Below, in pieces: positions 4,087-48,001 of a stretch of 64,000 nucleotides of DNA. The position numbers and the translations under genes were made by a program. The notes below the pieces were generated by a model. The model saw only the letters and a list, made by a program, of their open reading frames with translations. It did no database searches and had not been told where the DNA came from. Position 1 is the stretch's first letter; the number at the start of each line of letters is the position of its first letter. The stretch comes from Aldrovandia affinis (Eukaryota > Chordata > Actinopteri > Notacanthiformes > Halosauridae). The stretch covers positions 1,116,001 through 1,180,000 of the forward strand of contig JAINUG010000168.1 in NCBI GenBank assembly GCA_029706075.1, read 5' to 3'.

Positions 4087-4089
4087 AGC

Positions 4090-5260
4090 CTTAACAGTGA
4101 AATGCCCTTGTTTAAATACTGAACACAAGTAGTATTACGCGTTAAAAAAACCCTCACTTATCCTACATGTAAAATATATTTATTTGATTTAATATAATAA
4201 TTGCGACACCGAATACCAATTATCAATTAAATCTCCAAATTCGTTGATAGGCAGAGCAAACTGGTGGATCAACCTTCATAAAAACTCACAATTAAAATTA
4301 ACAGCTGGTTTATTCAGTTACAACAGTTAGACAAAACATTCAATGTCCAATCTACAGACGTAGGTTCAATTACCTTAACAAATAATAAATCGGAACATCC
4401 AATATGTAGGGTTTAGTTCTGTCTCCTCACATATGGAATATTTATCGCTACCGTTTCACAAGCTTGCTCGTACCACATCAAGCTCCGCACTCATCTGGCC
4501 GCTAAAGACGCTAGTTCCAAAGTGGATATTCCGGCTTGACAAATACTAACTTCTAAACATAAAATTGACATGTAACAATCACAAAAGAGATGAAATGGAA
4601 GAAAATTATACCAAACCAAGCTTGTGTCTCTCCAAGAACAAACACACGCATGCAAGGTGTTGGCTGGCGCCAGATCTTTCAAGAGAGAAAACAGGACAGA
4701 GACTTGTAGAGTTCCCACCAAAATCTAAAATCGTGTCACCAGCAGGTCAGACTTTAAGTGTTGAGGGCGGGGGAGCGGCGGGGTTGGCTCACTCCCTTCT
4801 TAGCCCATAATTTACAATTTGGGGGAGAGTTCCATGGCAAGCCAGGTTCAGAACCCCTTTTTGTATTTTTGTTTTGGGTCACTTACTACCACAAGTTATA
4901 TTTTCAAGCTCGACATTGATATGTTCCTCTCATGTTGAGAATCGTGGCGATATCAAACATCACTAGGGCCTGGTGAAGCCAGCTTCATTTATACCAAGAT
5001 GTTGGTTGAGCTGATATTTGGGGAGGCATAATATGCTCAAGAGCATTGCTACCAAGTGAGGAGGCCAATCATACCATGTTGACCTCCACTTTAATCTGGT
5101 GGGCCATAATTATTTTCTCCATGATCCATAATATTCAGCTCAACTGTAAGTATAAATCTGAAGTTGTGGGGTGTGGCACTCGTTCACCAACCCAAGTGCC
5201 CTGGCTTCACTCACAGAGCCATAAACCTGCCAAAGATGGCCCCACTCTGTCTGCCTGCGC
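4090..5260. other. Uncharacterised insertion between the two hAT transposase fragments
   Basis: About 1.2 kb with no recognisable protein. It includes an AT-rich part (4100-4480) and a part reminiscent of an LTR or 3' UTR (4480-4860). I see no matching terminal repeats or target duplication and cannot name it. Confidence 0.4.
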
Positions 5261-10660: not shown

Positions 10661-10994
10661 TTTTTGGAACTTTTTTAGCATACAATATACCTCATTACTT
10701 ATATAGTTTATTTTATATGATCTCTTTTGTTTATCTTTATTAAGGGTATAAATAAGAACAGAGTGTACTATATACAGTGAGCACCATAATTAATTGGACA
10801 GTGACACATTTTTTGTTATTTTGGTTCTGTACTTTAGCACTTTGAATTTGAAAGGATACAATGACAATGAGGTTGAAGTGCAGACTGTCAGCTTTAATTT
10901 GAGGGTATTAAAGCTGACATCCATATCGGATTAACCATTTAGAAATTATAGAACCTTTTGTACATAGTCCCCCCCATTTTCAGGCACCATAATT

Positions 10995-11872
10995 CCCTCA
11001 TGGCTGCGTGCTCCCTGTGCCACTCACCTAATTAGTTATGCTGCCCTAGATCAGTGGTTCTCAACCTTTTTTGTGATCTGTACCACTAAAATATTTTCAA
11101 CAATCCCCAAGTACCCCCTACCCATGATATTTATCATATATCATAATTGCACCTTTCCTCTTTTCATATACCCCGCAGCCAACACAGATATTTTGATTTT
11201 TTAAAAACATTTTATTAAGATTCACCATTAATAATTACAAAAGATATTTTGATAAATAAAAAAATTATAATTTAAGATTCATCATTAATAATTACAAAAC
11301 AAAGCCAGCAAATCTGCAGGAAATAAGAGCCCAGGGTCCATCACATTTCAACTTGAAATGCTTTTATTTTGAGGCAAAAAACATGTGTTAGTACCACGGA
11401 TGCCGCTGGCCCGGTTGAGAAACAATGCCCTAGATTATGTCTGCTGGTTCCTACTCTTTCCCTGATCCGGTGTGATATTTTTATAGTCATAATTGCCTTT
11501 CCTCCTGGTGGCACCTCTGGAGCTCATGAGAGTCAACCCCCACCCCTGCCATGTGTTAGGATGCCCTTAGCTGCTGGTTCCATCCCCGCCCTGCCCTGGT
11601 ATCTGAGCCTCAAGAATGCCCTTCTGGTGGTTTGTTAATTTGAGCCTCAAGGACTATTTGTGTTGTTTTTCTCTGTATCCCACCATTTTCCAGGAGTTCA
11701 TCTCGACCGCCTTTTAAGGGGTCAGGGAATAATTTTCCAGTCTCCCACATTGGCTCCAATGGTTTTCTGTTTTTTTGATTCCCTCTGGAAAATGCCAATT
11801 GTGAAGCGCTGTGTGACAACCTGTTTGTAAATGGCGCTATACAAAAATAAAGATTGATTGATTGATTGATTG
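10995..11872 (+). mobile_element. 5'-truncated non-LTR retrotransposon tail ending in (ATTG)n
   Basis: The segment ends in GGCGCTATACAAAAATAAAG followed by ATTGATTG repeats, a 3' end found in fish L2/Rex-type LINEs. It is flanked by ATAATT at 10989-10994 and 11873-11878. Without the hAT MITE inside it, it is about 490 bp of 3' untranslated sequence with no protein recognisable. The clade cannot be fixed from the tail alone. Confidence 0.65.
11052..11427. mobile_element. hAT MITE, 376 bp, with exact 8-bp target duplication
   Basis: The termini CAGTGGTTCTCAACC and GGTTGAGAAACAATG are inverted copies. The flanks CCCTAGAT at 11044-11051 and 11428-11435 are identical. The short length and lack of coding capacity make it a MITE. 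It sits inside the LINE tail at 10995-11872 and so inserted after it. Confidence 0.9.
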
Positions 11873-11913: not shown

Positions 11914-12928
11914 TCATTTTGAATATTTGGTTGCATATCCTTTGCATGCAATGACTGCTTGGAGTCTGCGATGCATAGACATCACCAGATGCTGGGTATC
12001 TTCCCTGGTGATGCTCTGCCAGGCCTGTACTGCAGCCATCTTCAGTTCCTGCTTGTTTCGGGGACTTTTTCCCTTCAGACTCCTCTTCAGCGTGTAAAAT
12101 GCATGTTCAATTGGATTCAGATCTGGTGATTGACTTGGCCAGTCAAGGATTTTCCACTTTTTGGCCGTCAAAAACCCCTTTGTTGCTCCAGCAGTATGTT
12201 TCGAGTCATTGTCTTGTTGCATGATGAAGTGCCATCCAATGAGTTTGGAGGCATTTGGTTTTATCTGAGCAGATAAAATATTTATGTAGACTTAGGAATT
12301 CATTGTTCTACTTATGTCTGCAGTCACATCATCGATGAAGACAAGTGAGCCCATTCCACTGGCAGCCATACAAGCCCAAGCCATAACGGATGAGGTGGTA
12401 TGCTTTGGATCATGGGCATTTCCTTTTTTTCTCCACACTTTCCTCTTCCCATCACTCTGGTACATGTTAATCTTTGTCTCATCTGTCCACAAGACTTTAT
12501 TCCAGAACTCTTGGGTGCTTTTTAGCAAACTGTAATCTCGCCTTTCTGTTCTTCAGACTTATCAGTGGTTTGCATCTTGTAGTGTACCCTCTGTAGTCCT
12601 GCTGGTGTAGTCTTCTACGTATGGTATACTTTGACACATCTACACCTGCATCCAGGAAAGTGTTTTTGATCTGTTTTTGGGTCGTTGTCAGGGGGGTTTT
12701 ATTCACCATAGAGAGTATTCTCCGGTCATCCACTACAGTGGTCTTCCTCGGTCTACTGGGTCTTTTGACATAATTGAGTTCACCAGTTGTTTTTTTCTTG
12801 TTAATGATGAACCAAACTGTTGACTTGGGCATGCCCAGGCTTTTTGCAATGTTCATGATTGATTGATTTTCATTTCTGAGCCTTGTGACAGCCAGCTTAA
12901 TTTGCATCGACACTGCTGTCTTCCTCAT
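11914..12928 (-). pseudogene. Tc1-like transposase pseudogene (family C)
   Basis: Three open stretches together cover the transposase. 12928-12497 carries the helix-turn-helix region (AKSLGMPKSTVWFIINKKK). 12528-12292 carries WTDETKINMYQSDGKRKVW with the first catalytic Asp. 12222-11914 carries QQDNDSKHTAGATKGFL (second Asp) and [14 protein letters not shown] (third residue, Glu). The complete DD34E triad is therefore visible, but two frame changes separate the parts, one near 12500-12530 and one between 12292 and 12222. The reading ends at a stop at 11914. Confidence 0.9.
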
Positions 12929-13056
12929 ATTGCCTCAAATTGACCTCATTACAGGAAACGTGTTCCGTGTGGTACCATACTGGTTATCAAATGGCCTTTG
13001 TGATCTGCACTGGTGGGACGATACTGGTTTCACTTGTCCAATGCCATGATGAGTGA

Positions 13057-13980
13057 TTACAACCCGTGAGTTTGTTTAAACAGGGCTTGATCTATGGGGA
13101 CGTAAGGGGGTTTAACTTTATTCATTACTGCGGTGTTATAGTGTTTGTCACAACTGAGTTTAAATGATCGCTTACTTGATTGTCTTTTAAGTGTCGTTTT
13201 GTTGGAGTCATTGGATAGCCCAAGCCTACTCCCTTGTTTTGCTTCGTACTGTGACTTGCATTAATCAATCGTGTAGTGTTTTGTCCGACATGAATGTTTG
13301 CGTTATACACTCCTAAGCTCCGCAGTTTTTCGCATGTTACTGGTGTGTGCCATAAGTGCATTAGTCCTTGCTATTTTTGTAACAATGTTGAATTTGTAAC
13401 AATGGTTGAACGAAGTATTATCATGCGTTGTGGTTACTATTAGGTATGTTACAATTCGGGTGCGCAGTGGTGCTTTAGATGTGCCGGTGTCTCTGCGCGA
13501 GCGATTACGAAAGGTTATGCGCGTCCCCCAAAACTGCAGGCTTTTCATTGGCTGTCGTTTTTTCTTTCACCATTCGTCTGCGATATAACGTAGTTAAAAA
13601 CTCGATCCTTCGCCTTGTTTCCGAAATTTGATTAAACATTGCTCGGTTTGGTCATACGCTACGCTTCAAAGTCAGACTTGTGTTTAGTGCTTTCAAAGTC
13701 ATAGATCGCAAGTTCAGGACTAAATAAAAGGTATCCAGGACGGTAATTTAACATTTTATCTTGTTTCTGGTGAAATTTCATTGAAATCTGTCGATGCGAA
13801 ATGCTATATTTTTGACCCGGAATGTGAGATAACTTTGCCCAAATGCTCACTGCCTGCCGTGGTTTTTGCCGTGTCGCGGCAGGTGCGCAACATGTAATTA
13901 TGTGATTAATTGATTATGTAATATAATTTCAAATAATTAAAATTAAGATATATATCATATCTTTTTTAGAATATCTTTAT
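13057..13980. other. Unannotated DNA
   Basis: About 920 bp between the Tc1 element and a small inverted repeat. ORFs are short and overlap on both strands. No domain, repeat terminus or RNA gene recognised. Confidence 0.4.
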
Positions 13981-13982
13981 TT

Positions 13983-14100
13983 TTAAGAAAGTTATGGCCA
14001 TTTATGTTATTGGATCACAGCTTTTGTTTCAAGCCCATTGAAAAGCAATGGGGGTCAATATGCAAATTTTCGAGTGTTAAAATGACCATAACTTCCTTAA
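13983..14100. repeat. Inverted repeat with an inner hairpin
   Basis: Arms TTAAGAAAGTTATGGCCATT (13983-14002) and its near complement (14081-14100) match at 17 of 20 positions. A second hairpin, CCCATTG/CAATGGG, sits between them at 14034-14052. It may be the remains of a MITE. No flanking duplication recognised. Confidence 0.55.
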
Positions 14101-17100
14101 AACTTAACATATGAGAATGAATAAGGTATCAAATTTTCATGCTCTATCTGGAGCATCTCAAAATGTCAAAATTTTGTAACATACCTATTACTATGTCTGA
14201 TCCTTGTCAGTGTGCTATTCTCTATTTAGGATTCCCATTCTGTGTAAAGGTAATCTGTGTTTTCTTGTTGTAATTGAATGTATTCTGTTTCTAGTCGGTA
14301 TTCTAGTCGAAGCCGTGGGCTTTCTCAGTTACATACAAATCCGCATGTTTGTCGGGACTCGCTGTGGAGTGAGGGCTATTTAAAGTTGACACTATGGCCG
14401 AAGCCGTAGTTAATTTATACATCTTGCGATGCACTTGGACACATCTTCAGTGATATTACTTGGGGTCATCGGGTGTTTCGGGTCTTTCAACAATCAGACA
14501 CCCTCACTCAGGCGACCCAGCCGGGAGTGATCAATTCCCGGCTTGTGTCCAAGTAGCATGCGACCACGGATCGCCCTTTCTGATCCACAGCCATCTAGAG
14601 GCCTTTTCTGCTGCCTCTGTGCTGGTTCTGATGGCCTTCCTTTTACGTGCACCTGTGATGCCCAGGAGACTGTAGGCCTTGCACAGCAACTGAGCTGTGA
14701 AGCCTCTACAGCCCACCTCTATGGGCACACACCGAGCACGCCACCCCCTTCTGCGGCAGTCTTCCACCAAGTCTGCGTACTTGGCTCTCTTTCGCTCATT
14801 GGCTTCCTCCATCCGCTCTTCCCAGGGAACTGTGAGCTCTAGCAGGACCACCTGCTTTGATGTTTCAGAGAACAGCACAATGTCTGGTCTCAGGGTGGTC
14901 TCTGCGATGTTTTCTGGGAATCGGAGCTACTTCCCTAGATCCGCCTTCATCTGCCAGTCAGGTGCTGTTCCGAAGACCCCTACTGCTGCCTTTGGATGAG
15001 GCTTGGGCTTCTCTCCTGCTCTGACAAAGGCGATCACCTGCCTTGCCGGTCGGAGGCGCTTGGTCTGATCTATGGCGCTGCAGATGGACTCAGCAATCAC
15101 CTTCAGCACCTGGTCATGGCGCCAGCGGTAGCGACCTTCACCCAGTGCTTTTGGGCAACAGCTGAGGATGTGCTCAAGTGTTCCTCTTCTGAGGCACAAG
15201 GGACATGCTGGTGAGTCAACCTTGCCCCAGCAGAAGAGGCTGGATGGACTGGGCAGGACGTCATAGACAGACTGTATCAGGAACTTTATGCGGAAAGGCT
15301 CAGCCTGCCACAGCTCGGACCAGGTGATCTTGCGGTCTGTTGCTTGTTCCCATCTTGTCCATGCGCCTTGCTGCCGCATCCCCACCATCTGACTTGCGCG
15401 CAGCTCCTCGACCCCAGCTCTTACCTCCTCTTGGACCAGTTGGCGTCTGTCTTTGCCGTGGGCTTTGTCATAGCGAGTTGTTGGAATGCTACCAAGCCCT
15501 GCTCGGCCAGACGCCACTGGCCCCACCAGAACGCTGTGGCGTAGCCGTGACTCAGCCTCGTCCACTGCATCCTGCGCCCTCCACTTCCTCCCAGTCCTCA
15601 CGTCGATGCCAGCCTGGGAGACTTTTGGGTCACTGGACTCCCTGTACTGCAGCACCTCCCTTGCACGGGTAACCTTAAACTCCTCACTCAGGCTGCTCAT
15701 GGGGAGTTTCAGTTTGCTCTTCTTCCCGTACAGAGCAATGCTACTCAGGCTTCGTGGCAGGCCCAGCCACCTGCGGAGGTGATGGCTAATCCTCCTCTCA
15801 AAGCCCTCAACAGTGGACAGTCGGAACTCGTAAACAAGCAGGGGCCACAAAATCCTGGGGAGGATGCCTTGGTAAATCCAGGCCTTGAATTTACCTGGGA
15901 GCCCTGACCTGTCCACCATTGCCAGCCATGCCTCCAGCTTCTGGTTTGTGGCCTTGATGGATGCAGCGTCCTTCAGAGTGCAGTCAAAGGTCTTGCCGAG
16001 ACTCTTGATGGGTTTCTCGGTGACTGATGGGATCTGGGTACCTTCCAGAGAGAAGCAGAACCGGTCAGTCACCTTCCCTCTCTTCAGTACCAGGGACCTG
16101 GATTTTGCTGGCTTGAAGCACATCCGGGCCCAAGTGATGAGCCTCTCCAAGCCCTGGAGGATCCATCTGCACCCCGGCACTGATGTTGTTGTTACTGTCA
16201 GGTCGTCCATGAAGGTTCTGATGGGGGGCTGCCGAACTCCGGACTTGGTTAGAGGGCCTCTGCACTCTACCTTGGCTGACTTGACCAGCATGTTCATGGC
16301 CAAGGCAAAGAGGATCACTGAGATAGTGCATCCAGTGATGATCCCTTTTTCCAGCCGATGGCACTCTGATGTGCCTGCCCCAGAGGTGACTCTCAGATTG
16401 AAACTGTGGTAATAGTCCAAAATGAGGTCCCTGATCTTGCCTGGGACATGGTGCTGCTCCAGTGCTGTTTCCACCAACTTATGGGGTATGGACCCATACG
16501 CATTGGTGAGGTCCAGCCACAGCACTGCCAGGTCACCTTTTCCTTCTCGTGCCTCTCTGATGAGCTGTGTGACCACTCCTGTGTGTTAAAGGCATCCTGG
16601 CACCTTTGGGATTCCACCCTTCTGCACAGAGGTGTCGATGTACTTATTCTTCAGGAGGTACTCGGTCAGACGTCGGGCAACGATACTAAAGAATATCTTC
16701 CCCTCAACGCTGAGCAGCGAGATGGTCCTGAACTGCTCGATGTTCCTTGAGTTCTCCTCCTTAGGAATCCAGACACCTTCTGCGAATCTCCATTGTTAGC
16801 CTACCTTCCCCCTCCTCCAGATAACCCTCAGGATCTTCCACAATGGAAGGAGCCTGGGACACCTCTTGTACATTTTGTAGGGCACTCCACTGGGTCCGGG
16901 GGCTGAACTGGCTCTGGCAGCCTTGACAACCTCCTGGATCTCCTTCCAACTGGGCTCCTTGCTGTTGAAGTCAGTGGTGGATGTGGATGGTCTTATCAAG
17001 GCTGTGCATTCCCCTAGGTCAGGGGTCGGCAACCTTTACTATCAAAAGAGCCATTTTTGGCCCCTCTCCCACTACATAAAATTCATCTGGAGCCGCAACA

Positions 17101-17583
17101 CCTATTTGACCCTTAAAATGAAGATAACACAGTGTATAAAGTTTTGTAGTTATACTATATATACAGAGGGATTGACATTTATTCAAAAGCTTATTTCTAG
17201 TATGTTTGACAGAAGTTATCAAGTTTTTAAGGCAAAAGGAGGTCATACAAGATACTAATTAATTCCAATTTTTTTGTCCATAATATCATGGAAAAATCAC
17301 TAAGAAAACTAAAAAACATATTATAGGAACTAAAATAGGAAATAAAATGTGGATGTGTAAATATGTGTGTTTTTGTCACCCACTGTAAAAGAACTATAGT
17401 TTGTTGTATTTGTGAAATTATAGAACAACAAAAAGAAAACTGTTGACATTTTATTGCTGTTTTTACCTGTTATAACAAAGGAAAACCTCAAACTCTTATG
17501 AAGAGGAGAAAAAAAGCACTGGCATGTGTAGACCTACTTTGAAATAAAACACAGAACCATGCAGGTCTATTTGAGTCCTTCCC

Positions 17584-18208
17584 TTATTTGCATAACAGCG
17601 CTGTCTGCTCAATATCGTTTACATCACTTGACTCATCACAGGCGATTGAGTATGCTGGAGCTGAATTAATCTCCTCAATTTGTTGACTGGTAATGTTTTC
17701 TGCCATCTTAAATCTTAATGGTCCTGTCCTTGGCGGTCTTTGCATAGAGAGGCATATCTCAAATTTTCTGAACAATTTCACGTTTGTTTTTGAAGTCCGA
17801 CAATAGATGTTCTGATATTTTAATTAATGATTCTTTCATGTAGCTATTCTCCATCTGTGAACGGCTTTCCGCGCCTTACTATCTCCTGAGCTGCCACAAA
17901 ACTAGCAGCAGTAGTTGAGTTTGGAGATTTGATCCACTTCTTGAAAGTAGATTTGCTCTGCTCAGCTTTCGCAGCAGTTCGAAATCGCTTTTTTTCTTTC
18001 ATCTCCAGCTTGGTACTTTTCAGCAAATGCTGTGTGTTTGTTCTGGAAATGTCTTTCAACATTACATTTTTTGTTGTTTGCTAATTTCTCACCACATATC
18101 AAGCATACAGGTAAGCCCACATCGTTAGGAGTGAAAGCAAATAAATCTGTCCATGGTGAATTAAACTCTATTTTCCTCCGAGACTTTTCTTTTTTTGGAT
18201 TTATCCAT
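17584..18208 (-). pseudogene. hAT transposase N-terminal pseudogene
   Basis: From the ATG at 18206-18208 (MDKSKK...) the minus strand encodes a BED-like finger (VCLICGEKLANNKKCNVE) and then SKSTFKKWIKSPNSTTAASF and IACDESSDVNDIEQTALL. The last is the block around the first catalytic acidic residue in GTF2IRD2/ZBED5-type hAT transposases. Frame changes occur near 18060 and 17780. Sequence for the remaining two thirds of a typical transposase is absent before the terminal repeat at 17020. Confidence 0.82.
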
Positions 18209-18772
18209 GGTTAGCTTACCGGGGTTGGAAACTCAAGATTAGCCACCTTCAGACGGCAGGGAGCCAGGGAGAGGCGCCGGGGATGTGACGCATTTTTAAT
18301 TGACGAAATATTAAACACTTTTTTTATGTCAGTGTCACAGTATCACCTCGATCTCCAAAATAAGGTGTTCCCTTAAAAATTTAATAAAATAGCCGTTATT
18401 TATTTCCATAAAGTGCGCAGGCGTCGACCAGGACGGTCGCTTGTTGCAGTTGCTCCGCTCGTTTTTGCACTCTTTGTTATTTATAGTTGTATTAATCGCT
18501 CTTTTTTTTCTACTTTAACGTGTATACTATATTATTAGTAGTATACCCATCGGGAACCGTGTGGTTCAGAGGAATTTGGACCGTATTTATGATCGGATTA
18601 CTCCTTATAGTGAGACTCGCTCAGGGACAACAAACCCAGCAGCATGGCGCTATTGTTTACAGTAGGGAACAGCTGATGGGACTCCGCATGCCGGCCGGCG
18701 TAGCGGAGATGACGCACCAAATTCCTGAGGAACTAAAGAGGAACTCCCGCAGCATATCTCCCCTCTATTATC

Positions 18773-19666
18773 ATGGGCAACGTGAGATCGCTGGCAAATA
18801 AGATGGACGAGCTAACGGCGTTAGCCAGGAGCCAGGCGGAGTTTCGGGAGTGCAGCATCATGTGTTTCACAGAATCATGGCTACACAAGGACATCCCCGA
18901 CAACAACGTCTCCGTGGACGGCTTTCAGACGGTCCGGGGTGACAGGGATTGCATCGAGAGCGGTAAGCGTAAGGGAGGAGGGCTCGCTGTTCTTGTTAAC
19001 AACAAATGGTGTAATCCCGGCCACATTACAATCAAGGAACGGCTTTGTTCTCCGGACACTGAACTGTTAGCTGTGGGACTCCGACCATATTATTTGCCTA
19101 GGGAATGGTCGCATGCTATTGTTGTGGCCATATATATTCCCCCCTCTGCTAACCCGACGTCGGCGTGTGAAATCATACACAGCGCCATTGCCAGACTCCA
19201 GACCAAACACCCGAATGCCCTTATAATTATTTCGGGGGATTTTAATCATGTCACCATGAGGAAGACACTACCCAACTTCAAGCAGTATGTTAACTGTCCT
19301 ACCAGAGGGGAAAAAACGATTGACTTGCTATATGCTAACGTGAAGGAAGCGTACTCCTCGTCTCCGCTCCCCCCTCTGGGAAGGTCTGACCATAATCTGG
19401 TGTACCTCAAACCCACTTATGTGCCTCTAGTGAAAAAACAGCCTGTGACCACAAAGTCAGTGAGGAGGTGGTCTGAGGAGGCGATGGAGGCACTTAGAGG
19501 CTGTTTTGAGGTGACTGACTGGCAAGCACTTAGTGAACCGCACGGAGATGACATAGATGGGCTCACTGGGTGCTTAACTGACTACATAAACTTCTGTGTG
19601 GACTGCAATGTCCCAACAAGGACCATAACAAGCCATGGATTACAAAGGACATTAAGACCATACTAA
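18773..19666 (+). pseudogene. L2 LINE endonuclease domain (APE type)
   Basis: The 297-codon frame contains MGNVRSLANKMDEL, FTESWLH (catalytic Glu), GGLAVLVNNKWC, VYIPPSAN-like AIYIPPSANP, IISGDFNHV and GRSDHNLV. These are the ordered active-site blocks of the AP-endonuclease fold used by LINEs to nick target DNA. The start is simply the first Met in an open frame, so the true start may lie upstream. The frame breaks near 19625 and resumes at 19735-19953, which carries the linker to the RT. The active-site residues named are all present. Confidence 0.85.
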
Positions 19667-19934
19667 ATGCTAAGAAGAGGGCATTTAGGGCTGGGGATAA
19701 AGATGGGGTAAAAACAATCCAGGGGGAACTGAGAGTGACAATCAGAGAGGCCAAGGAGAAATACAGGAGGAAGCTGGAAGGAAAACTCCAGCAAAACAAC
19801 ATGAAGGAGGTGTGGAGTGGTATGAAGGCCATCACTGGGTTCAAGCAGGCTGGGGGCCGGGGGGTGGAGGGTGGGGTGGATAGAGCCAATGAATTGAATC
19901 TGTTCTTTAACAGGTTTGATGTTGATGGCCCTGT

Positions 19935-21520
19935 GTGCCCCCGACTCGTCTGACGGCAGCCTGCAAACACCTTCCACTCCACGGCACCCCCTCCCCCCTC
20001 CCGATGGCTCACAGACTGATACACCCCTACCCCCTCTCCCCCCAGTCAACACCCCGACCCCCAGTGACGAGGCTACTCCCCCCCAGTGGCTTCCTGACTG
20101 GCGACGCCACCCCTCCCCCACCCACGATGGCCTTCACAGCTGCTCAGGTGAGAAGCCAGCTGAAGCGTCTCCACACAAATAAGGCGTCTGGCCCGGATGG
20201 TGTCAGCCCCAGGGTGCTTAAAGCTTGCGCCCCCCAGCTGTGTGAAGTGCTTCAACATTTATTCAACAAGAGCCTGAGTCTTCAAAGGGTCCCCGTGATG
20301 TGGAAGACGTCCTGCATCGTCCCTGTGCCTAAAAAGCCACGTCCCAGTGGGTCCAATGACTATAGGCCGGTGGCATTGACCTCGCACATCATGAAGACCC
20401 TGGAGAAATTGGTCCTGGAGCAGCTCCGGCCCATGGTCAAAACATTCCTTGACCCCCTCCAGTTCGCCTATCAGCCCCGACTTGGAGTTGAGGACGCTGT
20501 CATCTACCTGACCAACAGCGCCTACGCCCACCTGGACAACCCGGCTAGCACTGTGAGAGTCACGTTCTTTGACTTCTCCAGCGCCTTCAACACCATCAGG
20601 CCGGCACTACTGGGTGAGAAGCTGGCGGAGATGCGGGTGGATGCCCCCCTCGTATCCTGGATTGTTGACTACCTGTCTGGCAGACCACAGTATGTGCGCT
20701 TGCAAAACTGTGAGTCGGACAGGGTGGTCAGCAACACTGGCGCACCGCAGGGAACAGTCTTCGCTCCCTTCTTCTTCACCGTCTACACCATGGACTTCAC
20801 CTACCAGACTGAGTCTTGCCATCTTCAGAAGTTTTCTGATGACTCAGCGATAGTTGGATGTATCAAAAATGGTGATGAAGAAGAGTATCGGGCTGTGGTG
20901 GGTAACTTTGTCACATGGTGTGAGCGAAACTACCTGTAGCTCAACGTGACAAAAACAAAGGAACTGGTGGTGGACCTGAAGAGGGTCAAGTCACCGGTGA
21001 CCCCTGTTTCCATCCATGGGGTCAGTGTGGACATCGTGGAGGACTACAAGTACCTTGAGTGTACATTGATAATAAACTGGACTGGGCTAAGAACACAGAA
21101 GCTCTCTACAAGAAAGGACAAAGCCGCCTCTACTTTCTGAGAAGGCTGAGGTCCTTCAACATCTGCCGGACTATGCTGAGGATGTTTTATGAGTCGGTGG
21201 TGGCCAGTGCCTTCCTGTATGCTGTCTCGTGCTGGGGCGGCAGACTGAATGCAGCGGATGCAAACAGACTCAATAAACTGATCCGCAAGGCCAGGGACAT
21301 TGTGGGGCTGGAGCTGAGCTCCCTGACGGCAGTGTCGGAAAGGAGAACGCTGTCCAGGCTGCATTCCATCATGGACAATACCTCCCACCCACTCCATGAC
21401 GTGCTGGTCGAACACAGGAGCACGTTCAGTGCAAGACTGATCCCACCCAGATGCACCACAGAGCGACACAGGAAGTCATTCCTGCCTGTGGCCATCAGAC
21501 TCTTTAACTCCTCACTCTGA
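19935..21520 (+). pseudogene. L2 LINE reverse transcriptase
   Basis: Reads ...[45 protein letters not shown] (catalytic Asp), GAPQGTVFAPFFF and KFSDDSAIVG, the FSDD form of the Y/FADD box usual in the L2 clade. A TAG at 20937-20939 (NYL*LNVTKTK) interrupts the frame where glutamine is expected, consistent with a single C-to-T change. A frameshift follows near 21060. The C-terminal part (21059-21520) ends with the family's RHRKSFLPVAIRLFNSSL. Confidence 0.9.
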
Positions 21521-23041
21521 GCACCAGCCACTCTGAGACTGAGCCAGCCAATAGGATAGCTGTGGAACATTTAACATTTACATCTACGCCATAGTGTAAA
21601 ACTAGAATCCACCGGGCTAATGGAAATGAATGTGCAATCAACCTCAATGTGCAATAACTACAAATTGACACATACTGTACATAGAATAGTACCTTAAGCG
21701 GATGCTACTTATTTTTACTTATTTTACTTATTTTTATTATTATTATTACTAGCATTATTGTTATTTTTTTCTTATTGATTCTCACGGTACAAACAGCCCT
21801 ATGTCTTGAGAATGTTTGAATGTTTGCCGTTGATGTATATACTGTGCCATGTATAATATGTGATATGTCTGAGTGCGAGCAACTGTAACTTGTCCCAATT
21901 TCCCCCCGGGGATCATTAAAGTTTTCTGATTCTGATTCTGATTCTGATATTATTATTTTTCATAGCTGTAGGGAGTCACTGCAGAGGGGCTGAAGAGCCG
22001 CGGGTTGCCGACCCCTGCCCTAGGTCATCCTCCCTCGCTGCATCACTGTAGATGTTGCGGAGATGGTGGTCTACTTCCTCTTTGGAGCAAGTGAGGTGGC
22101 CACTGCGTTTCTGGCCTAGCAGATGCTTAGTGAACCCGAAGGGGTTTGCAATGAAGGCAGACCGTTTCTTGGCCCTCTCTTTCGCCCGCCTTCTGTGCCA
22201 TTCTGCTCTGTGAAGAGTGATGAGCTTCTTCCTGAGGATGCTGCGGAGTTCTGCCTGCGCATTCCTCTCTTCCTCACCTGCTTCCTTGAACTGCCGCTTC
22301 AGTTTTCGTAGCTCCTGCCTTAGCTGGCTGATCTTCTCTGCCCTACGGTTCTTCACATAGGGAGTCTTGGTACCCCGTTCCTTCACCGTACCAAACCTCT
22401 AAGCAGCAAGGCTGATGATGATGGTTGTCATCGTCTGGAGCTTCCTGTCAGCGTCCCCCTTCGCCGTTGCTTCAAGGATTTCGTCCACATCATCATCAAA
22501 CAGGAGCCATTCTTTCTCCTTGTTGGCAGAAGGCCACTTAACCCGTCGATTTCCTCCTACTCTGCTTTGGAGTGGAGCTGCTGGCACATGGAGGTTCCGG
22601 GCACTGTGGGGTGACTCCAGGCCTGGCTCCTCCTGCGTCTCACCAGGAGCTGTTCCTGTGCGCTGTACCACCTGCTCCCTCATCAAGCATTTCATTTTGG
22701 CCTGGTGGATCTTCAGGCCACGTGGGGTTTTGCAGACCTTTCCACATACGCATTCTGCACTTGTTGTCGATATTCGGTTTGCTTGGGTCGTTGCCTGTGT
22801 GTCCGTCCGGTTGGGGTGCTCATCCTCCCCCCCTCTCGGGCACCCCTGGGGGTATTTCTCTGTAAGGCTTTCCGTAGCTACTATGGGCTCTCCCTCTCAG
22901 AAGCTGCAGTTTGGGGTGCTAACCCTCCCTGCCCCGGTTGCCGTCTTTCCGTGCTGTCCGCTGTCTCTCCAGCTGTCGCCACACTATTCGCGGTAGTCAT
23001 CCAGCCTGTTCCTGAACGTCACTGGCCTAGCCAGATTGAAC

Positions 23042-23225
23042 TAGTTAATTTATACATCTTGCGATGCACTTGGACACATCTTTAGTGATATTACCTGGGG
23101 TCATCGGGTGTTTCGGGTCTTTCAACAATCAGACACCCTCACTCAGGCGACCCAGCCGGGAGTGATCTCGGCTTGTGTCCAAGTAGCATGCGACCACGGA
23201 TCGCCCCTTCTGATCCACAGCCATC
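23042..23225 (-). mobile_element. 3' tail of a second REL-endonuclease LINE copy
   Basis: 184 bp nearly identical to 14407-14595, differing by a 4-base gap and a few substitutions. It encodes the last 20 or so residues of the LINE protein plus its 3' untranslated region. On the minus strand it ends exactly where the 5' end of the complete copy begins. It is 5'-truncated at 23225, where gypsy sequence starts. Confidence 0.88.
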
Positions 23226-23321
23226 GTGAAGCTTGCTGAAATAAAATTTGAATGAAAGAAAATGTAAATCGCAAAGGAACTTGAAATTGCAAGGATCAAT
23301 GAAAAGCTCAAATAAAAAGAA

Positions 23322-24797
23322 TTGGCTTTAGCTGATGAAAAGGTGAAATTAGAAGTTCACAAACAAAAAGATGCAGAAGCGTACCGAACTCACTGCTTGG
23401 AGTTAATTTCAATCGGAAAGCTAGAGTCATCTGTGTTATCTGGTGGTGGTGATATAGATGAGCCCAATTCATCTGGCAATAGGAATGCTGTACATAATTT
23501 AAGATTGGTTCCTAGATTCAATGACTGAGATCTGGATACTTTCTTTACTCTATTTGAAAGAGTTGCTGCAAATAGGCTCTGGTCCGAAGCTGATCAGAGT
23601 CTGTTGCTCCAATGTGTTGTGAACGGTAAGGCCCAGAGGTTTTTACTGCGTTGGATTCCAACACCCTCGAGTCCTATTCACGTGTTAAAGATGCGATTTT
23701 GCAGACCTACGAATTAGTCCCTGAAGGTTATTGGCAGTGATTTAGAAATGTAAAACGCGCTGATAAGCAGATCCACGTTGAGTTTGTGAGAGATCTGATG
23801 GTTCAATTTGATCACTGGCGTAAGGCCTCCAAAGTGACTGAGTATGACGAACTTTGCAATTTAATTATTTTAGAACAGTTAAAAAATATGATTCCGGAAC
23901 AAATCGCTACTCATCTCAGCGAGAGCGCAATGTCTGATCCGATAGAAGCTGCTGCTATGGACGATAATTATGCACTCCTTCACAAGCACACTTTTCGTGG
24001 TCTCCGTCAAAAAAGGAAATGGAGCATTTGACCAGTGGAAAAATAATCACCACGGCAACCCTCCCGCTGTGATATCTGTCCCTGGTACCGATGGCAATAA
24101 AATTTGTCATGCATGCAAAAACAAAGGTCATTGGAAAGGGGAATGTCCCATTTTTAAATCTGACCAATTCTCCCCGTCTAAAAATACTCTGGTGTTCTCC
24201 AAGCCTGCTATTTTGGCAGTACAGCCACGTGCTGACACTGTTCATGCCACTGGTTTTATACAAAACGTCCCATGTCGGCCCAGTGTTCCTGACCCTGATT
24301 TTGCTCCTTTTATTAATGACGGTTTTGTGTCTTTGCAGGGGTGTCAGGAGAGAAAGCCGGTGTGCGTGTTACGGGATACAAGGGCTTTACAGAGCTTCAT
24401 CTTAAATGGTGTTTTGCCTTTCGATGATGAGACTGCTACTGGGGAGAGCGTGATGGTTCACCATATAGAAATGACTAGAGTGAATGCTCCTTTGCATAAA
24501 ATTCACCTATGTACTGATCTAATACAGGGTAATGTCATTGTAGGAGTGAGACCATCCCTACCTGTAGAGGGTGTGCAAGTTATCCTCGGGAATGATCTGG
24601 CCAAGGGTTTTGTCTGGAAAGACATTACTCCACCTCTGCGGTTGAAAGCCGAGCCGAGAACGTCTGAGGAGCTGGATGAGGTTGCCGGCCGACACCCGCA
24701 GGTTTTCACAGCCTGTGTGCTGACGCGCTCCATGGCCAAGCCCGAGGCGGAACAGCCATGTGTTATGGATACAATCCTCACAGAGGGTGAATGCTCT
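23322..24797 (+). pseudogene. gag and protease of the Gmr1-like element
   Basis: Gag pieces are at 23322-23528 (ending NLRLVPRFND before a stop) and 23786-24031 (VRDLMVQFDHWRKASKV in frame), with further frames between. A CCHC zinc knuckle, ICHACKNKGHWKGECP, is at about 24103-24150. The protease region reads VCVLRDTRALQSFIL at about 24360-24405. The conserved glycine after the catalytic Asp-Thr pair has become arginine (RDTRA), which would be expected to disable the enzyme. The C-terminal part VILGNDLAKGFVW is the usual post-protease segment. The frame runs to the L2 insertion point. Confidence 0.85.
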
Positions 24798-24806
24798 GAT
24801 GTAAAG

Positions 24807-26742
24807 ATTTCTTTATTTGTCGTTGTCTTTGTACACTTGCGTGCATAAAAAAAACCGAAATATCATTCCCCCCAGCCCTCAGCAGTACTACAGTAAAAGA
24901 CAACAATCACAAATAGGCTCAAATATAAAAAACATAAAACAGTTTGCATAAAAACAACAATGGAGCAGCAGCTGCCCAGTGGCAGTTTGGTAAATATTAA
25001 TTAATATATTAATACTCTGCAGTATATTAAATTACGCAAAATTACACATATTAAATTACACAGTATATTAAATTGTAGTGAAATGTAGTGTAAAGTGCAG
25101 GTTCAGTTCAGTAGTAACAGTGTCTTAAAATGAGTAGGAGGGAGAGGGCACAGTCTGTTCACCATTCTGACTGCCTGTGGAAGGAAGCTGTTCAGCATCC
25201 TTTGGGATCGGGCACGGAGGCTCCTGTACCTTTTCCCCCGATGGCAGGAGGGAAAAACAGTCCATGGAAAGGGTGGTGAGGGTCCCTTATGATGCTGGTG
25301 GCCCTGCGAGTGCAGCGCTGGTTGTAGATCTCCAGCAGGGACGGGAGAGGGGCACCAATGATCTTACTGGCTAACTTCACAATCCTGCTCAGCTGATGTT
25401 TCTCCAGTGCCTTGCAGCTGCCGAACCAGGACGTGAGGCCATAAGATATGACAGATTCAATGGTGCCCCTGTAAAAGGTGGTGAGATGGGGGGCAGGGAG
25501 GCCTGCCTTTTTCAGACGCCGGAGGGGATGGAGCCGCTGGTGAGCCTTTTTACGGATGGCCGTGGTGTTGGTGGTGAAGGTCAGGTCGTCTGCCAGGTGG
25601 ATTCCCAGAAACTTGACGCTGCTGACTCTCTCCACTGCGGTGCCTCCGATGGTCAGCGGCATGTGGTGGAGCTTGCCGGCCCTCCTAAAGTCAATCACCA
25701 TCTCCTTTGTCTTGTCGGTGTTGAGGAAGAGATTGTGTGAGCTGCACCATGATGTAAGTTGCTCCACCTCATTCCTGTATGCAGACTCATCATCGTTCCT
25801 AATCAGACCCACCACTGTTGTGTCGTCTGCAAACTTGATGATGTGATTGCTGTTGGATCTGGCAGTGAAGTCATGGATGAGCAGGCTGAACAACAGGGGG
25901 CTCAGTACACAGCCCTGAGGAGACCCTGTGCTCACTGAGATGGTTCTTGAAGTCAGACTGCCCACCTTGACTCTCTGCTGCCTTTGTGACAGGAAGTTGT
26001 GGATCCAGCTGCAGGTTCCAGCATCCACATTCAGCCACCTCAGCTTTTCTACCAGCTGCTGTGGAATGATGGTATTAAACGCTGAGCTGAAGTCGATGAA
26101 GAGGAGTCTGGCATAGGTGTTTTTATCTTCCAGGTGTGACAGAGTGAGATGGAGTACAGTGGAGATGGCGTCTTCTGTTGAGCGGTTAGCTCTATATGCA
26201 AACTGTAGAGGGTCTAAGTCTGCGGGGAGGCGGTCCTTGATGCGCTGCAGGATGAGCCGCTCAAAACACTTCATGGCTATAGGTGTAAGAGCCACAGGGC
26301 GGAAGTCATTTAGGCAGGCTGGGTTTGACTTTTTTGGCACAGGTATAATAGTGGCACTCTTGAGGCAGGTGAAAAAACATATTTTAACTGCTCGGCGCAC
26401 TCCCTCACCACACTCCCGGGATGTTGTCCGGCCCCGCTGCCTTGCGTGGATTGACGCTGGCGAATACTTTTTTCACCTCAGCTGCTGTCACCTGAGGTAT
26501 CTGCTCGCTGGGTGATGGTGGGAGCATCTGTGCCTTGTTGCTGTTTTTAGCCTCAAAACGTGCGTAAAAGTCATTAAGCCTGTCAGGTAATGTAGGGTCT
26601 GTGTGGCTCGCCTGCGGGGGTGGCTTGTTGTCAGCGATTGTGTTAAAACCTTGCCACAACCGCCGTGAGTCTTGGTTGTCCTTGAAGTGGCTGCTGAGCT
26701 TCAGCCCATACAGCCTCTTCGCCTCCCTGATGCCCCGGGACA
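24807..26742 (-). mobile_element. 5'-truncated L2-clade LINE inserted in the gypsy element
   Basis: The minus-strand element is flanked by GATGTAAAG at 24798-24806 and 26743-26751, a 9-bp target duplication typical of target-primed insertion. It carries RT and the C-terminal domain but no endonuclease, as expected for 5' truncation. On both sides the gypsy reading continues (ECSDVK / VITLSPD), so this insertion is younger than the gypsy element. Confidence 0.9.
25192..26659 (-). pseudogene. L2 LINE reverse transcriptase, long open frame
   Basis: The frame 26400-25192 is open for 402 codons: [35 protein letters not shown] (catalytic Asp), [31 protein letters not shown] (FADD box) and a complete C-terminal domain ending [12 protein letters not shown]. 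The piece 26659-26405 supplies the upstream [12 protein letters not shown] block in another frame. It lacks the endonuclease because of 5' truncation, so it is not a functional element, though the RT itself is remarkably intact compared with the L2 copy at 18.4-22 kb. Confidence 0.9.
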
Positions 26743-26751
26743 GATGTAAAG

Positions 26752-28158
26752 GTGATTACTCTATCTCCTGATGTACCCATTAAGCCACAGCCAAATTAAG
26801 CTTCACTCTCCCCCTTGCTCACAGTCTCCCGTGATGAGCTGATAGCTGAACAGAAGTCTGACCCTACTTTGACTACTTTATTCGACATGATTCATACAGT
26901 CGCCAAACTTGAGAAAACTCAGCCGGGTTACTATATGTAGGATGGTTTACTGTTGCGCAAATGCCTGCTACACCCCACTGTGTTAGACGATGCCCAAATC
27001 ACGCATGTTGTACTGCCATTGCGGTTCGAAGGGGTGGTGGTGCGCATGGCACATGCTGGTTCTTCTGGGCATTTGGGTGTTCGTAAAACATACGACCGTG
27101 TTCTCCGTCAATTATATTGGCCCAAATTGAAATGCGACATTTCAGCGTATGTTAAGGCGTGTCATGTTTGCCTGGTCTCCGGTGGACCGGATATTGGGGT
27201 TCGCCCCGCACCTCTCAAGCCTATCTGTGTGGTGGAGGGGGATCCTTTTGATTGCCTGGTTTTGGAGGATGTTGGCTCCCTTCCAATGTCTCAGGGAGGA
27301 GATCGGTGTTTGTTGACTGTGATGTGCAGAGGCACTGGATGTCCTGCTGCCTTCCCTCTCTGCGCAATTGGGGCCAGGAACATCATTGGAGCACTTGCTT
27401 CATTTTTTTCTGTCTTCGGCATGGCCGGGACGATTCAGGCTGGTCAGGGCTCGGGTTTTGCCTCCCGAGCATTTTCTCAGTTTTTGAGGGAACTACGCAT
27501 CTGTCTACGCTACGAGCTACGCACGTGTCACCCCCAGAGTCAGGGCGTTCTAGAACGCTTTCACCTGACTTTAGAGTCCATGTTGCGGTCTTATTGTGTT
27601 GAGCTTTCCCGTGATTGGGAGAGTGGATTGCCCTGGATGTTTCTGGCCATTCTTGAAGGAGTGCAGGAAAGCACTGGTTTTAGTGCGAGCGACTTAGTCT
27701 TCGGACATACTGTGAGGGGTTCATTGCATTTGATTGCTGATGGGTGGAAGCAGACAGAACCCCCTAGGAGCCTATTGTCCTATGTTGATGACTTCCGTCT
27801 GAGGCTGTGTAGAGCGTGCGAGTTGGCGAGGGAAGGCCTATCCATTGCACAGTCTAGGGTGAAGTCCTGTTGTGATCGCAGGGCTGAAAGCCAGCCTGGT
27901 GATCGAGTGTTGTTGCTGTTGCCTATACTTGGTTCCCCATTCCGGGCCGGGTGTGGCGGTCCTTGTGCTGTGGAGCGTCGTGTGTCAGACTTGGATTATT
28001 TGGTCTATGCTCCTGATCGAGGGAGGAAGTTTCAGTTGTATCACATTGGCTTGATGAAGCCTTTTTGTACTCCTCGGTCTGCTACTGTTGGTGCAGGGGA
28101 TGGGGAGATCGATGTGGCCGTGGGGGCCATGGGGTCGTTCGTTTGTCCAGGCCGGTGA
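26752..28158 (+). pseudogene. Integrase of the Gmr1-like element
   Basis: A 401-codon frame begins at 26953 just after a TAG (QPGYYM*DGLLLRKC). It holds the HHCC zinc-binding region (AHAGSSGHLGVRKTYDRVL...ACHVC) and the catalytic core. The first Asp region reads LVLEDVGSLP. The second, usually TDQG, reads IQAGQGSGF, so the catalytic Asp has been lost. The Glu region is present (SQGVLERFHLTLESML). The tail reads FQLYHIGLMKPF, the family's C-terminal block. The frame ends at 28158 and leads straight into the linker that precedes RT. Confidence 0.88.
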
Positions 28159-28853
28159 GTTGTTGGGTCGCTTGGCTGTTTCCTTCGGTGACAGTGTTGC
28201 TGACAGCCTCCCTGATTCTGGCAAGACTGAAGACCTTGGGTTGCCAGGTGGGCCCGTGTTTCGGGGGCGATTTAAAGGTTCTGGGTGTCTCGCCACGTTG
28301 GAGTTCCAGTTGTCTTGTCTGGCTGGGGAGCAGCGCTCTGGCATTGTCGGTTTGATTAATTCACATTTGTCCTTGTTTGCCGATGCGCCGTCCCGGGCCA
28401 ATGTGGTTGAGCGCGACATCGATGTTGGTGGTGCTGAACTGGTTCAACTGCTTTTTTGCCGTGTCCCATTTGAGAGGCGGAATCTTAGCAGTGGAAGTGG
28501 GGTGTGTGCTTGGGAGTGGAATTGCTGCACCTGCCTCATCGCCATGGGCTTCGCCATGCCTGTTGGTGGCTGAGCCTGGCAGTGCATTTGGATTCTGTAC
28601 AGATTTTCAGAAGGTTAACTCCCTCACCAAACCTGACTCGTACCCTCTTCCACTTATAGAGGATTGTGTCGATCAGGTTGGTAACGCCGCTTATGTGACA
28701 AAGCTGGATCTGCTATGTGGTCACTGGCAAGTGCCACTGTCTAAGCGTGCGAAGGAAATATCTGCTTTTATCACTCCCGACAGCTTATATTCCTATGAGA
28801 GAATGGCCTTTGGTTTGCGGAGTTGTGTGTTTTGGCTGCCTCATAGGCCAGCC
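28159..28853 (+). pseudogene. Reverse transcriptase remnant of the Gmr1-like element
   Basis: The linker (SGIVGLINSHLSLFADAPSR at about 28337-28395) and the RT N-terminus (SPWASPCLLVAEPGSAFGF, KVNSLTKPDSYPLPLIEDCV, YVTKLDLLCGHWQVPLSKRA with the first catalytic Asp) are plain in two frames. After MAFGLRSC at about 28830 the homology stops. The remaining RT, including the second active-site block, and RNase H are deleted. About 35 bases later the polypurine tract begins. Confidence 0.85.
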
Positions 28854-28866
28854 TTAAGTGGGGAGG

Positions 28867-29169
28867 TGTTATGGTTCCTGGTATATTTGTGCTTGGTCCC
28901 TGTTGTTGTTGTCGTCTGCTTTGTCTTTCTGTGCAGGACAGTGTTTGGCCAGCAGGTGGCGGGGCTTAATTGATAGATTGGAGGACCAGTTCTATATAAG
29001 GCCGGACGGTGTAGGTAGTCTACCCTCTGCCAGTCCAGCCGAATGGACTTTATTCATTAATCAATTATATTATTTTGTTATTAGTCTACTTGTGTAATAA
29101 ATCCCTTTTTTGCATCATAACTCGCCTTGTTTTGACTTTGTTCGGTCCACCCGACCTTGGATCGCAACA
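28867..29169 (+). mobile_element. 3' LTR of the Gmr1-like element with polypurine tract
   Basis: 303 bp starting TGTTATGG and ending GCAACA. It is preceded directly by the purine run AAGTGGGGAGG (to 28866), the priming site for plus-strand DNA. A TATA-like TATATAAG is at 28993-29000 and an AATAAA at 29096-29101, in the order expected for an LTR. The matching 5' LTR is not in the window. Confidence 0.85.
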
Positions 29170-29184
29170 ATATATATATATATA

Positions 29185-30913
<1,729 letters not shown>

Positions 30914-37640: not shown

Positions 37641-37800
37641 TCATTACATTACAGGCATTTGGCAGACGCTCTTATCCACAGCGACGTACAACAAAGTGTT
37701 AACCGTAGTCAAGAACAGTTTCGCTGAAAGCCATTCTAGAGGGAAGTACAATTCCAGGTGCTAGGAGCAACCACATAGTTAAACTAGGACCCTGTAGGAA

Positions 37801-38839
37801 CAGTGGGTTCGGAAAGTATTCAGACCCCCTTAAATTTTTCACTCTTTGTCATATTGCAGCCATTTGCTAAAATCAATTAATTTCATTTTTTTCCTTGTTC
37901 ATGCACACACAGCACCCAATATTGTCAAAAAAACACAGACTTGTAGACATTTTTGCAGATTTATTACAAAATAAACACTGAAATATTACATGGCCATAAG
38001 TATTCAGACCCTTTGCTGTGACACTTGTATATTTAACTCAGGTGCTGTCCAATTCTTCTGATCATCCTTGAGATGGGCCTACACCTTCATTGGAGTCCAG
38101 CTGTGCTTAATTATATTGATTGGACTTGATTTGGAAAGGCACACACCTGTCTATGTAAGGTCCCACAGTTGACAGTGCATGTCAGAGTAAAAACCAAGCC
38201 ATGAAGTCCTAGGAACTCTCCATAGACCTCCGAGATAGAATTGTGTTGAGGCATAGATCTGGGGAAGGGTATAAAAACATTGCTAAAGCATTGAAAGCAC
38301 CCAGGAGAACAGTGGGCTCCATCATTGTGAAATGGAATAAGTTTGAAACCACCACAACTCTTCTTAGAGCTGGCCGTCTGGCCAAACTAAGTAACCAGGC
38401 AAGAAGGGACATGGTCAGGGAGGTGACCAAGAACCCAATGGCCACTCTAAGAGAGCTTCAGAGTTCCTCTGCAGCGATGGGAGAACCTGGTAGAAGGACA
38501 AACATCTCTGCAGCACTCCCATCAATCAGACCTTTATGGTAGTGGCTAGACGGAAGCTACTTCTGAGTGAAAGGCATATGACAGCCCACCTGGAGTTTGC
38601 CAAATGGTACTTAAAGGACTCTAAGAGCATCAGGAAAAAGATTATCCGGTCTGATGAGACACAAATTGAAATTTTTGGCCTGAATGCCAAGTGCTACCAG
38701 TCTGTGTTTTTCTGACAATATTGGGTGCTGTGTGTGCATGAACGAGGAAAAAAATGAAATTAATTGATTTTAGCAAATGGCTGCAATATGACAAAGAGTG
38801 AAAAATTTAAGGGGGTCTGAATACTTTCCGAACCCACTG
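37801..38839 (+). mobile_element. Tc1-like element (family E), internally deleted
   Basis: The roughly 140-bp ends (37801-37941 and 38699-38839) are inverted copies starting CAGTGGGTTCGGAAAG. TA follows the right end (38840-38841). The left flank is AA, best explained as a mutated TA, because the intact LINE copy at 56.1 kb reads CTGTTGGTAAATC at this place. The body keeps only the front of a transposase gene. Confidence 0.9.
38202..38716 (+). pseudogene. Tc1-like transposase N-terminal fragment (family E)
   Basis: Reads ELSIDLRDRIVLRHRSGEGY and AKALKAPRRTVGSIIVKWNKF, the Tc1 helix-turn-helix region, with a stop just after the Met. The frame then breaks and reaches SDETQIEIF-like sequence with the first catalytic Asp at about 38650. 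The rest of the catalytic domain is deleted, and the sequence runs directly into the right terminal repeat. Confidence 0.85.
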
Positions 38840-38986
38840 TAAATCTGTAGCCACGATTCAAAGGCAGCAATAAAACAACCAGTGCGGAAAATATCGGCGA
38901 AATAATGCCTAAACCTAATACAATACATAAACAAGTAGACATGAGTGCAATACCAGACAGCTATGTCCCTAAGTAACAAAACCGGA

Positions 38987-46120: not shown

Positions 46121-46153
46121 ATTATTTATGTTGACATTTCACTTTTTATTTAA

Positions 46154-46641
46154 TATAGGTGTGTTCCCAACACGTCTTCTAAAAATGAAACACCCTTTGA
46201 AGCCAGAGTAACGTGGAGTCTTGAACGCAGACGACAGGACAAGAGACTTGTAGTTTACAATTTAATAACAAACAAAGCTCTTCTTACAAATCAGGTCGAA
46301 TGTATAAATGTATAATGTAATGCCGAATGGTCAAAAAACTGTGTCGCTATCAGGAGCTGGCTTCATCTAACTAACCGGAAGCTTGATCTGCATCCCACAA
46401 TGCTGCACATAGGTCACGTGATTAATTCTAGATTCACAGTTCTAAATAAAGAAATGTTCTATCTCACTTGTCTCTGTGTCTATTTTTAAACTAATGAATT
46501 CTAAATGTACTTATACCATGAAATTATCATGTCAGTCTTTTTAACTAAATTATCAAACATGAAAATATTAATATATCAATATATAAAATATGAACTACCG
46601 ATACGGTATATAAATTAGCCGATTCCTAAACGGCCCCTACA
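46154..46641 (-). mobile_element. BEL/Pao 3' LTR
   Basis: 488 bp. On the minus strand it begins TGTAGGGGCCG and ends CACACCTATA. An AATAAA is in the interior. The end does not have a canonical CA, but the boundary is fixed by where the two LTR copies stop agreeing. Confidence 0.92.
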
Positions 46642-46771
46642 TTATCCGGCCCCTAATTGGTTAGGCAGGAGGGCTAAGCAATTAATACCTTATAAACTAA
46701 ACAATTATGATGTCTATGAACTGACAAACATAAAGTCTCTTGGGGACTATTCTAACTGAAGTCCTCTCTTC

Positions 46772-48001
46772 TCAGGCTGCTGCTTCTTCTAGCAGGCACA
46801 ACTTGCTTACTGGTCTCTCCAACATGTTGGTCTTGGTCTTTATCTTGACTCTTCGTACCACCCCGCTTGAATCCGGTAGTGTTTCGACTACTCTTCCCAG
46901 GAGCCAGGAGTTGCGTGGGGAAGTGCTGTCCACTAGGAGCACGACATCTCCAGTTGCGAAGTTTCGTCTTGGTGTTGACCATTTCTGGCGCTCTTGGAGG
47001 AGTGGGAGATACTCACGAGTCCATCTAGTCCAGAACAAATCCGACAAGTACTGGACTTGCTTCCATCTTTTCTTTGTGTACATGTCGTCTTTGTTGAAGA
47101 TGCCTGGGGGCATGTTAGGTTGGGACTTCAACAGCAACAAATGGTTGGGTGTCAGAGGCTCGAGGTCGTTCATGTCATCCGAGATGGTGGTGAGCGGTCT
47201 TCCATTGATGATGCTCTCGACCTCGCACATCGTCGTCTGAATACAGTCGCGTTTATGGCTTGCTCCTTCATGATAGAGCTGAGGATTCTTCTGACTGTTC
47301 GAATCTGTCTCTCCCAAACACCGCCTTGGTGGGAGGCTGCTGGGCTGTTGAATATCCATTTGATTTATTTTGGTTGTAAGGCTCTTTCGATCTTGTCATT
47401 ATCCAGTTGTTGGATTGATTCTCTCAATTCTCTTTCGCGGCCACGAAATTCGTGCCGTTATCCGAACGCATGATGGTGACTTGACCTCTGCGGCATACAA
47501 AGCGTCGGGTGCGTTTATGCAAGAGTCTGTGTCGAGGCTGTCTGCGACTCTATGTGTATGGCTCTCAGGGTAAGGCAGGTGAACAACACGCCGTATCTCT
47601 TGACTGTACCCGGCCCCGCTTTACATCAAAGGGCCCGAAGAAGTCGACGCCGGTGTTGGTAAATGGGGTTTATCGGGCAGGAGGCGATCTTCAGGTAAGT
47701 TCGCCATCTTCTGCTCCCCGACCTTTCCAGTGACCCTGCGGCACACAACACACTTGTTGAGTAGCTTTCTGATTGCAGAGTTGGCTTGTGGGATCCAATA
47801 TTTGCGTCTTAGCTGCGCCAGGACATAGCTGCGTCCGGCGTGTCCTGTCCTTTGGTGGATGTCTGACAGGATCAGTGTGGCAACTCTGCTGTGTTTAGAT
47901 ATGATGGCTGGGCGTTTGGCGGTCTCTGGCATGGCTGACTTGTTGAGTCTTCCGCCGACCCTCAGGATGCTGTCTTGAAGTATAGGGTCTAGTCTGAACA
48001 A
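46772..48001 (-). pseudogene. BEL/Pao integrase
   Basis: 48001-47621 carries the zinc-binding HHCC (SDIHQRTGHAGRSYVLAQL...NKCVVCR) and part of the catalytic core. Frames between 47640 and 47370 carry GVDFFGPF-like (first Asp) and RSDNGTNFV (second Asp) sequence and the third block with its Glu ([14 protein letters not shown]). 47359-46772 holds the C-terminal domain used by BEL integrases ([40 protein letters not shown]). Three or more frame breaks separate the blocks. It ends with TGA or TAA at 46772, about 130 bp before the 3' LTR. Confidence 0.9.

Follow-up and report, generated by a model that had tools for sequence, protein, structure and literature searches.

The 64-kb window, which is the whole stretch of DNA analysed, carries on its plus strand and in this order gag, a CCHC knuckle, a protease-like stretch, integrase, a reverse transcriptase (RT) lead-in, an RT fragment, a polypurine tract and a long terminal repeat (LTR). 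Both the order and the coordinates of the original prediction held on re-analysis, and its two boundaries, 23226 and 29169, are real sequence edges (Table 1). Among the other contents of the window are Tc1, LINE and BEL elements, a mixture that would point to a fish; close after the LTR comes a Tc1-like transposon whose inverted repeats, of 203 bp each, are at 29180-29382 and 30593-30795.

Table 1. Features of the retrotransposon copy and of the LINE that interrupts it (positions in the window)
Feature	Position	Strand	Basis or remark
Possible displaced gag start (ATGGCCGAAGCC...)	14394..14406	+	Weak and putative; beyond the 8.8-kb LINE stack
Gag remnant	23226..24028	+	At least two frames, with stops
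N-terminal charged, coiled-coil-like part of gag	about 23268-23525	+	Judged by eye
SCAN-like capsid part of gag	23741-24028	+	Pfam SCAN
CCHC zinc knuckle of gag	24105..24146	+	CX2CX4HX4C in translation
Protease-like stretch	24300..24650	+	Motif-level reading
Left target-site duplication of LINE (GATGTAAAG)	24798..24806		Exact 9-bp repeat
LINE between protease-like stretch and integrase, foreign to the gypsy element	24807..26742	-	Pfam RVT_1, flanking duplication
Right target-site duplication of LINE	26743..26751		Codon phase runs on into the integrase frame
Integrase lead-in	26752..26952	+	Translation; two in-frame stops
Integrase (zinc-binding part, core, weakly supported C-terminal part)	26953..28158	+	Pfam, solved structures
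RT lead-in (LINSHLSLFADAPSR...)	28355..28508	+	Translation; frame unlike that of integrase or RT
RT fragment ending FGLRS	28509..28823	+	Ty3 RT match
Polypurine tract (AAGTGGGGAGG)	28856..28866	+	Sequence
3′ LTR, 303 bp, TG...CA	28867..29169	+	Sequence; directly after the tract

The capsid part of gag matches the Pfam SCAN family at E 5.4e-8, its 33 bits exceeding the cut-off of 27, and the Pfam zinc-knuckle matches of the CCHC segment, at E 0.04-0.16, are below cut-off. The knuckle and the protease-like stretch share one frame, while the remainder of gag and pol is broken. What of the protease that had been claimed? At 24375 a DTR stands in the position of the active-site motif, with ILGNDLA then following, and it is by this motif that we take the stretch to be protease; the claim stands as a motif-level reading, and the accompanying searches of Pfam and of solved proteases returned no match. 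Fold prediction was uninformative both here (mean pLDDT 35.9) and for integrase (32.6).

Integrase itself is much better marked, with Pfam Integrase_H2C2 above cut-off (E 1.1e-14), rve (E 0.013) and Integrase_p58_C (E 2e-4) below it, and, among solved structures, matches to the integrases of PFV (E 3.1e-15) and Ty3 (E 2.4e-11). When it is aligned to PFV integrase, the first of the aspartates that we take to be catalytic is replaced by E and the second by G, and the catalytic E is kept. In NCBIfam the matches were to IS481 (27.6 of 224 bits) and IS3 transposases, far below cut-off, and are taken as probably reflecting distant DDE kinship. The lead-in piece 26800-26937 gave no Pfam match.

For the RT fragment the best evidence is a match to Ty3 RT among solved structures (E 1.5e-18); in Pfam it matches RVT_1 alone, below cut-off (E 5.5e-5), and in NCBIfam nothing. 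Neither its lead-in nor the stretch 28158-28355 has a database match beyond chance, and integrase, RT lead-in and RT are in three different frames, so that some decay or a small rearrangement is conceivable at this junction. The RT reading stops at FGLRS, before YxDD, the catalytic motif of the enzyme, and after 43 bases the LTR begins. As those 43 bases are too few for it, RNase H is absent from this copy, in which the full series PR-INT-RT-RNase H is thus not legible; a deletion reaching the polypurine tract best explains why RNase H and the YxDD motif are both gone. Within the LTR, a TATA-like site near 28993 and an AATAAA at 29096 can be read from the sequence.

The other end of the copy is less simple. 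To look for a 5′ LTR, the 3′ LTR was aligned locally to the window in chunks, except for those that touch it (27401-30000), a stretch covered by other repeat searches; no second LTR, and so no flanking pair, was found within the 64-kb window. The best alignment in 12900-14406 scored 26, which is inside the range of 100 shuffles (mean 22.7, maximum 34), and no other scanned chunk gave a score above 55. The single LTR is read as decay of the copy and not as diagnostic of its clade. Immediately left of position 23226 is a LINE-end repeat of 189 bp (23042-23225, 95% to 14407-14595), so that this boundary is a repeat edge; the genuine 5′ portion of the element has either been lost or now lies on the far side of the LINE stack. 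The flanks at 14394-14406 and on the 23226 side form a continuous frame when overlapped by 1 base, and this short join hints, if weakly, that the start of gag may lie to the left of the 8.8-kb LINE stack; local alignment found no LTR on that side of it.

Gag and pol both show stops and frame changes on translation, and the copy is dead and cannot move by its own proteins. That it documents its domain order well, as had been proposed, is an overstatement for a copy that is truncated, interrupted by a LINE, deprived of RNase H and changed at two of the three integrase catalytic acids. Its intact relatives, to judge by the family, would make a Gag-Pol polyprotein in the order gag-PR-INT-RT-RNase H, which the protease would cut; RT-RNase H would then copy the element RNA, with the second strand primed at the polypurine tract, and the DDE integrase would insert the DNA. 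Once released, the enzymes should act as in Ty3 despite the different order of the polyprotein.

Is the position of integrase ahead of RT original to the element, or did it arise in the wreckage? The LINE bears on this question. It is on the minus strand, about 1.94 kb long and recognised by Pfam (RVT_1, E 2e-34); the 9-mer that flanks it is duplicated exactly and has just these two plus-strand occurrences in 64 kb, and by frame arithmetic the reading frame of protease on its left stays in phase with that of integrase on its right. From the duplication and the kept phase it follows that the protease-like stretch and integrase adjoined before the LINE came, and creation of the order by the LINE insertion is rejected. 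The continuity of protease into integrase in the original prediction is accordingly sound across the LINE and not in the window as it now stands, where the LINE intervenes. Less the LINE and one copy of the duplication, the distance from the protease motif to the zinc-binding part of integrase is 474 nt; in Ty3 about 468 residues lie between the start of the RT match and that of the integrase match, so RT-RNase H does not fit between protease and integrase here.

Controls for domain order consisted of placing the integrase and RT queries from the window on other polyproteins. On the Ty3 chain 7q5b the RT match (620-724) comes ahead of the integrase match (1088-1301). With tblastn against a plasmid collection, integrase matched three records (5 places) and RT the same three (4 places), and, taking the best place per record, RT is before integrase in all three: NZ_CP087956.1 (plus strand, RT 1740-2003, integrase 3169-4181), NZ_CP065944.1 (plus strand, RT 10858-11124, integrase 13456-14136) and NZ_CP065945.1 (minus strand, RT 16546-16812, integrase 13891-14514). 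The first of these records, although catalogued as a Wolbachia plasmid, appears to be insect DNA. Exact 8-residue patterns found no relatives of integrase and RT in IMG/VR or genome_contigs, an absence that says little as the patterns come from a decayed copy and the collections are viral and prokaryotic, and tblastn of integrase against phages also found none.

The alternative origin for the order is a chimera, in which a conventional gypsy element was stripped of the RT-RNase H that had stood between its protease and its integrase, and the RT fragment and LTR of another copy arrived downstream by nested insertion or recombination. That rearrangements occur here is plain enough from the decayed state of the copy, the three frames over the integrase-RT stretch and the apparent deletion after FGLRS. 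Yet integrase has its zinc-binding part, its core and a weak C-terminal part, 292 nt lie between the last of these and the RT lead-in, and the search for repeats of 30 bp or more saw none at the integrase-RT junction. The clean in-phase LINE insertion and the short spacing from protease to integrase favour a native order, and the SCAN-like gag points to a clade known for having integrase first. A chimera of two copies is thus highly unlikely and a native integrase-before-RT order much the likelier, so that the case originally made for the latter was right in substance.

The order PR-INT-RT is that of Ty1/copia elements, among which it would be normal. It is stated for copia in PMC2582038 and PMC6238403. 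Domain order alone speaks for such a membership, to which next to no probability attaches: the RT matches that of Ty3 and, in Pfam, RVT_1 alone, the integrase matches those of PFV and Ty3, and the gag has a SCAN-like domain. Membership of Ty1/copia was rejected on the best solved RT matches being to Ty3, the comparison being with Pfam and solved structures. The deletion from RT to the tract could have predated integration and be common to many copies spread in trans, as it leaves the priming site, the polypurine tract, together with the LTR; one copy only is seen, and the proposal has a very slight probability. The same very slight probability is assigned to the junction of FGLRS and polypurine tract marking a non-autonomous, RNase H-less Gmr1 lineage that would be mobilised in trans.

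The reading as a Gmr1-like element, which was that of the original prediction, remains the best: integrase is upstream of a Ty3/gypsy-type RT, the capsid part of gag is SCAN-like, and the combination of such a gag with integrase before RT fits the Gmr1 clade. We put at about 0.93 the probability that what lies here is a dead Gmr1-like Ty3/gypsy LTR retrotransposon copy with native integrase-first order and SCAN-like gag, later entered by a LINE and deleted from RT to the tract. Goodwin and Poulter (2002) are said to have provided the founding description of Gmr1-like elements. According to PMC2582038, the order in Gmr1 of Gadus morhua is PR-IN-RT-RH, and Saugg1 of Sparus aurata is described as sharing the Gmr1 structure (PMC3587641); the upstream position of integrase in Gmr1-like elements is also stated in PMC6238403, PMC2774666 and PMC8220671. 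The SCAN domain has been traced to Gmr1-like gag (PMC3424704, PMC4592553), and a frog survey gives SCAN in ‘over 50% of Gmr elements only’ (PMC4131045). In Gmr elements gag and pol are fused in one ORF, according to section 3.2 of PMC11117352.

What, then, does one more copy contribute? The integrase-first order of the Gmr1-like clade is already known, repeatedly in print, and to that the copy in the window adds little. Surveys of fish and frogs report many such elements, from dozens to hundreds of Gmr copies (47 Gmr sequences across ten Tetraodontiformes in PMC11117352, and about 200 copies in Silurana in PMC4131045). The calculation confirms that a Gmr1-like element had been recognised here from raw sequence, and a single copy here ties the integrase-first order to a SCAN-type gag.

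Set beside known systems, the element is like Ty1/copia in its PR-INT-RT order, whereas the sequences of its RT and integrase are of Ty3 type. With Ty3 and conventional gypsy elements it has kinship in both of those sequences, but Ty3 and the three plasmid-collection records have RT before integrase. Compared with the Gmr1-like elements themselves (Gmr1, Saugg1 and Gmr1-Gmr4 of Tetraodontiformes), the copy in the window has a LINE inside it and a single LTR, and has lost most of RT together with RNase H; that LTR, at 303 bp, contrasts with the 337-518 bp listed for puffer Gmr LTRs in Table 2 of PMC11117352; it is like them in having integrase first, a SCAN-type gag and a Ty3-type RT.

Immediately to the left of the decayed Gmr1-like Ty3/gypsy copy, which has its integrase upstream of the reverse transcriptase (RT), lies a stack of LINEs whose outer member, which may be of the site-specific HERO/R2 type, has an RVT_1 match at 14930-16576 (E 7e-13), with the other LINE nested in the stack at about 18.6-21.9 kb. 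The 189-bp 3′ end of the outer LINE is present again at 23042-23225, and the head-to-tail disposition of LINE 3′ ends may reflect repeated insertion at one site. On the other side, the Tc1-like transposon is bounded by 203-bp inverted repeats that are 99% complementary; its ORF, of 274 aa, matches transposase HTH domains, and a long TG repeat comes after the element.

Mobile elements neighbouring the Gmr1-like copy
Feature	Window position	Strand	Placement	Basis
LINE stack	14407-23225	outer LINE minus, nested LINE plus	left of the Gmr1-like copy	RVT_1 match, repeated 3′ end
Tc1-like transposon	29180-30795		adjoins 3′ LTR of the Gmr1-like copy	inverted repeats, ORF
BEL/Pao element	46143-53855	minus		long direct repeats, long ORFs

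The BEL/Pao element appears to be in better condition than the Gmr1-like copy. Its direct repeats (46275-46574 and 53556-53855) are 100% identical, a further pair (46143-46271 and 53429-53557) is 97% identical, and because of its repeats it is likely to be the younger of the two; its long ORFs match Peptidase_A17 (E 4e-48) and DUF5641 (E 2e-31).

Elsewhere, a transposon-like stretch of about 750 bp (13435-14193) is bounded on both sides by 20-bp inverted repeats, 90% complementary, and at 37800-38840 the 147-bp arms of another inverted repeat, 98% complementary, are spaced 747 nt apart. The first of two ORFs at 5264-6005 matches DUF4371 (E 1.7e-6, below the cut-off), and this region may be what is left of a hAT-like transposase. 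An ORF at 60601-61137 with a BESS motif (E 4e-12) is perhaps a host gene exon or a DNA-transposon accessory protein.

Three records filed as bacterial plasmids, NZ_CP087956.1, NZ_CP065944.1 and NZ_CP065945.1, are probably mislabelled eukaryote DNA; the gypsy-type RT and integrase that they contain are, judged by the best match of each, in the conventional order, RT first, as in Ty3.
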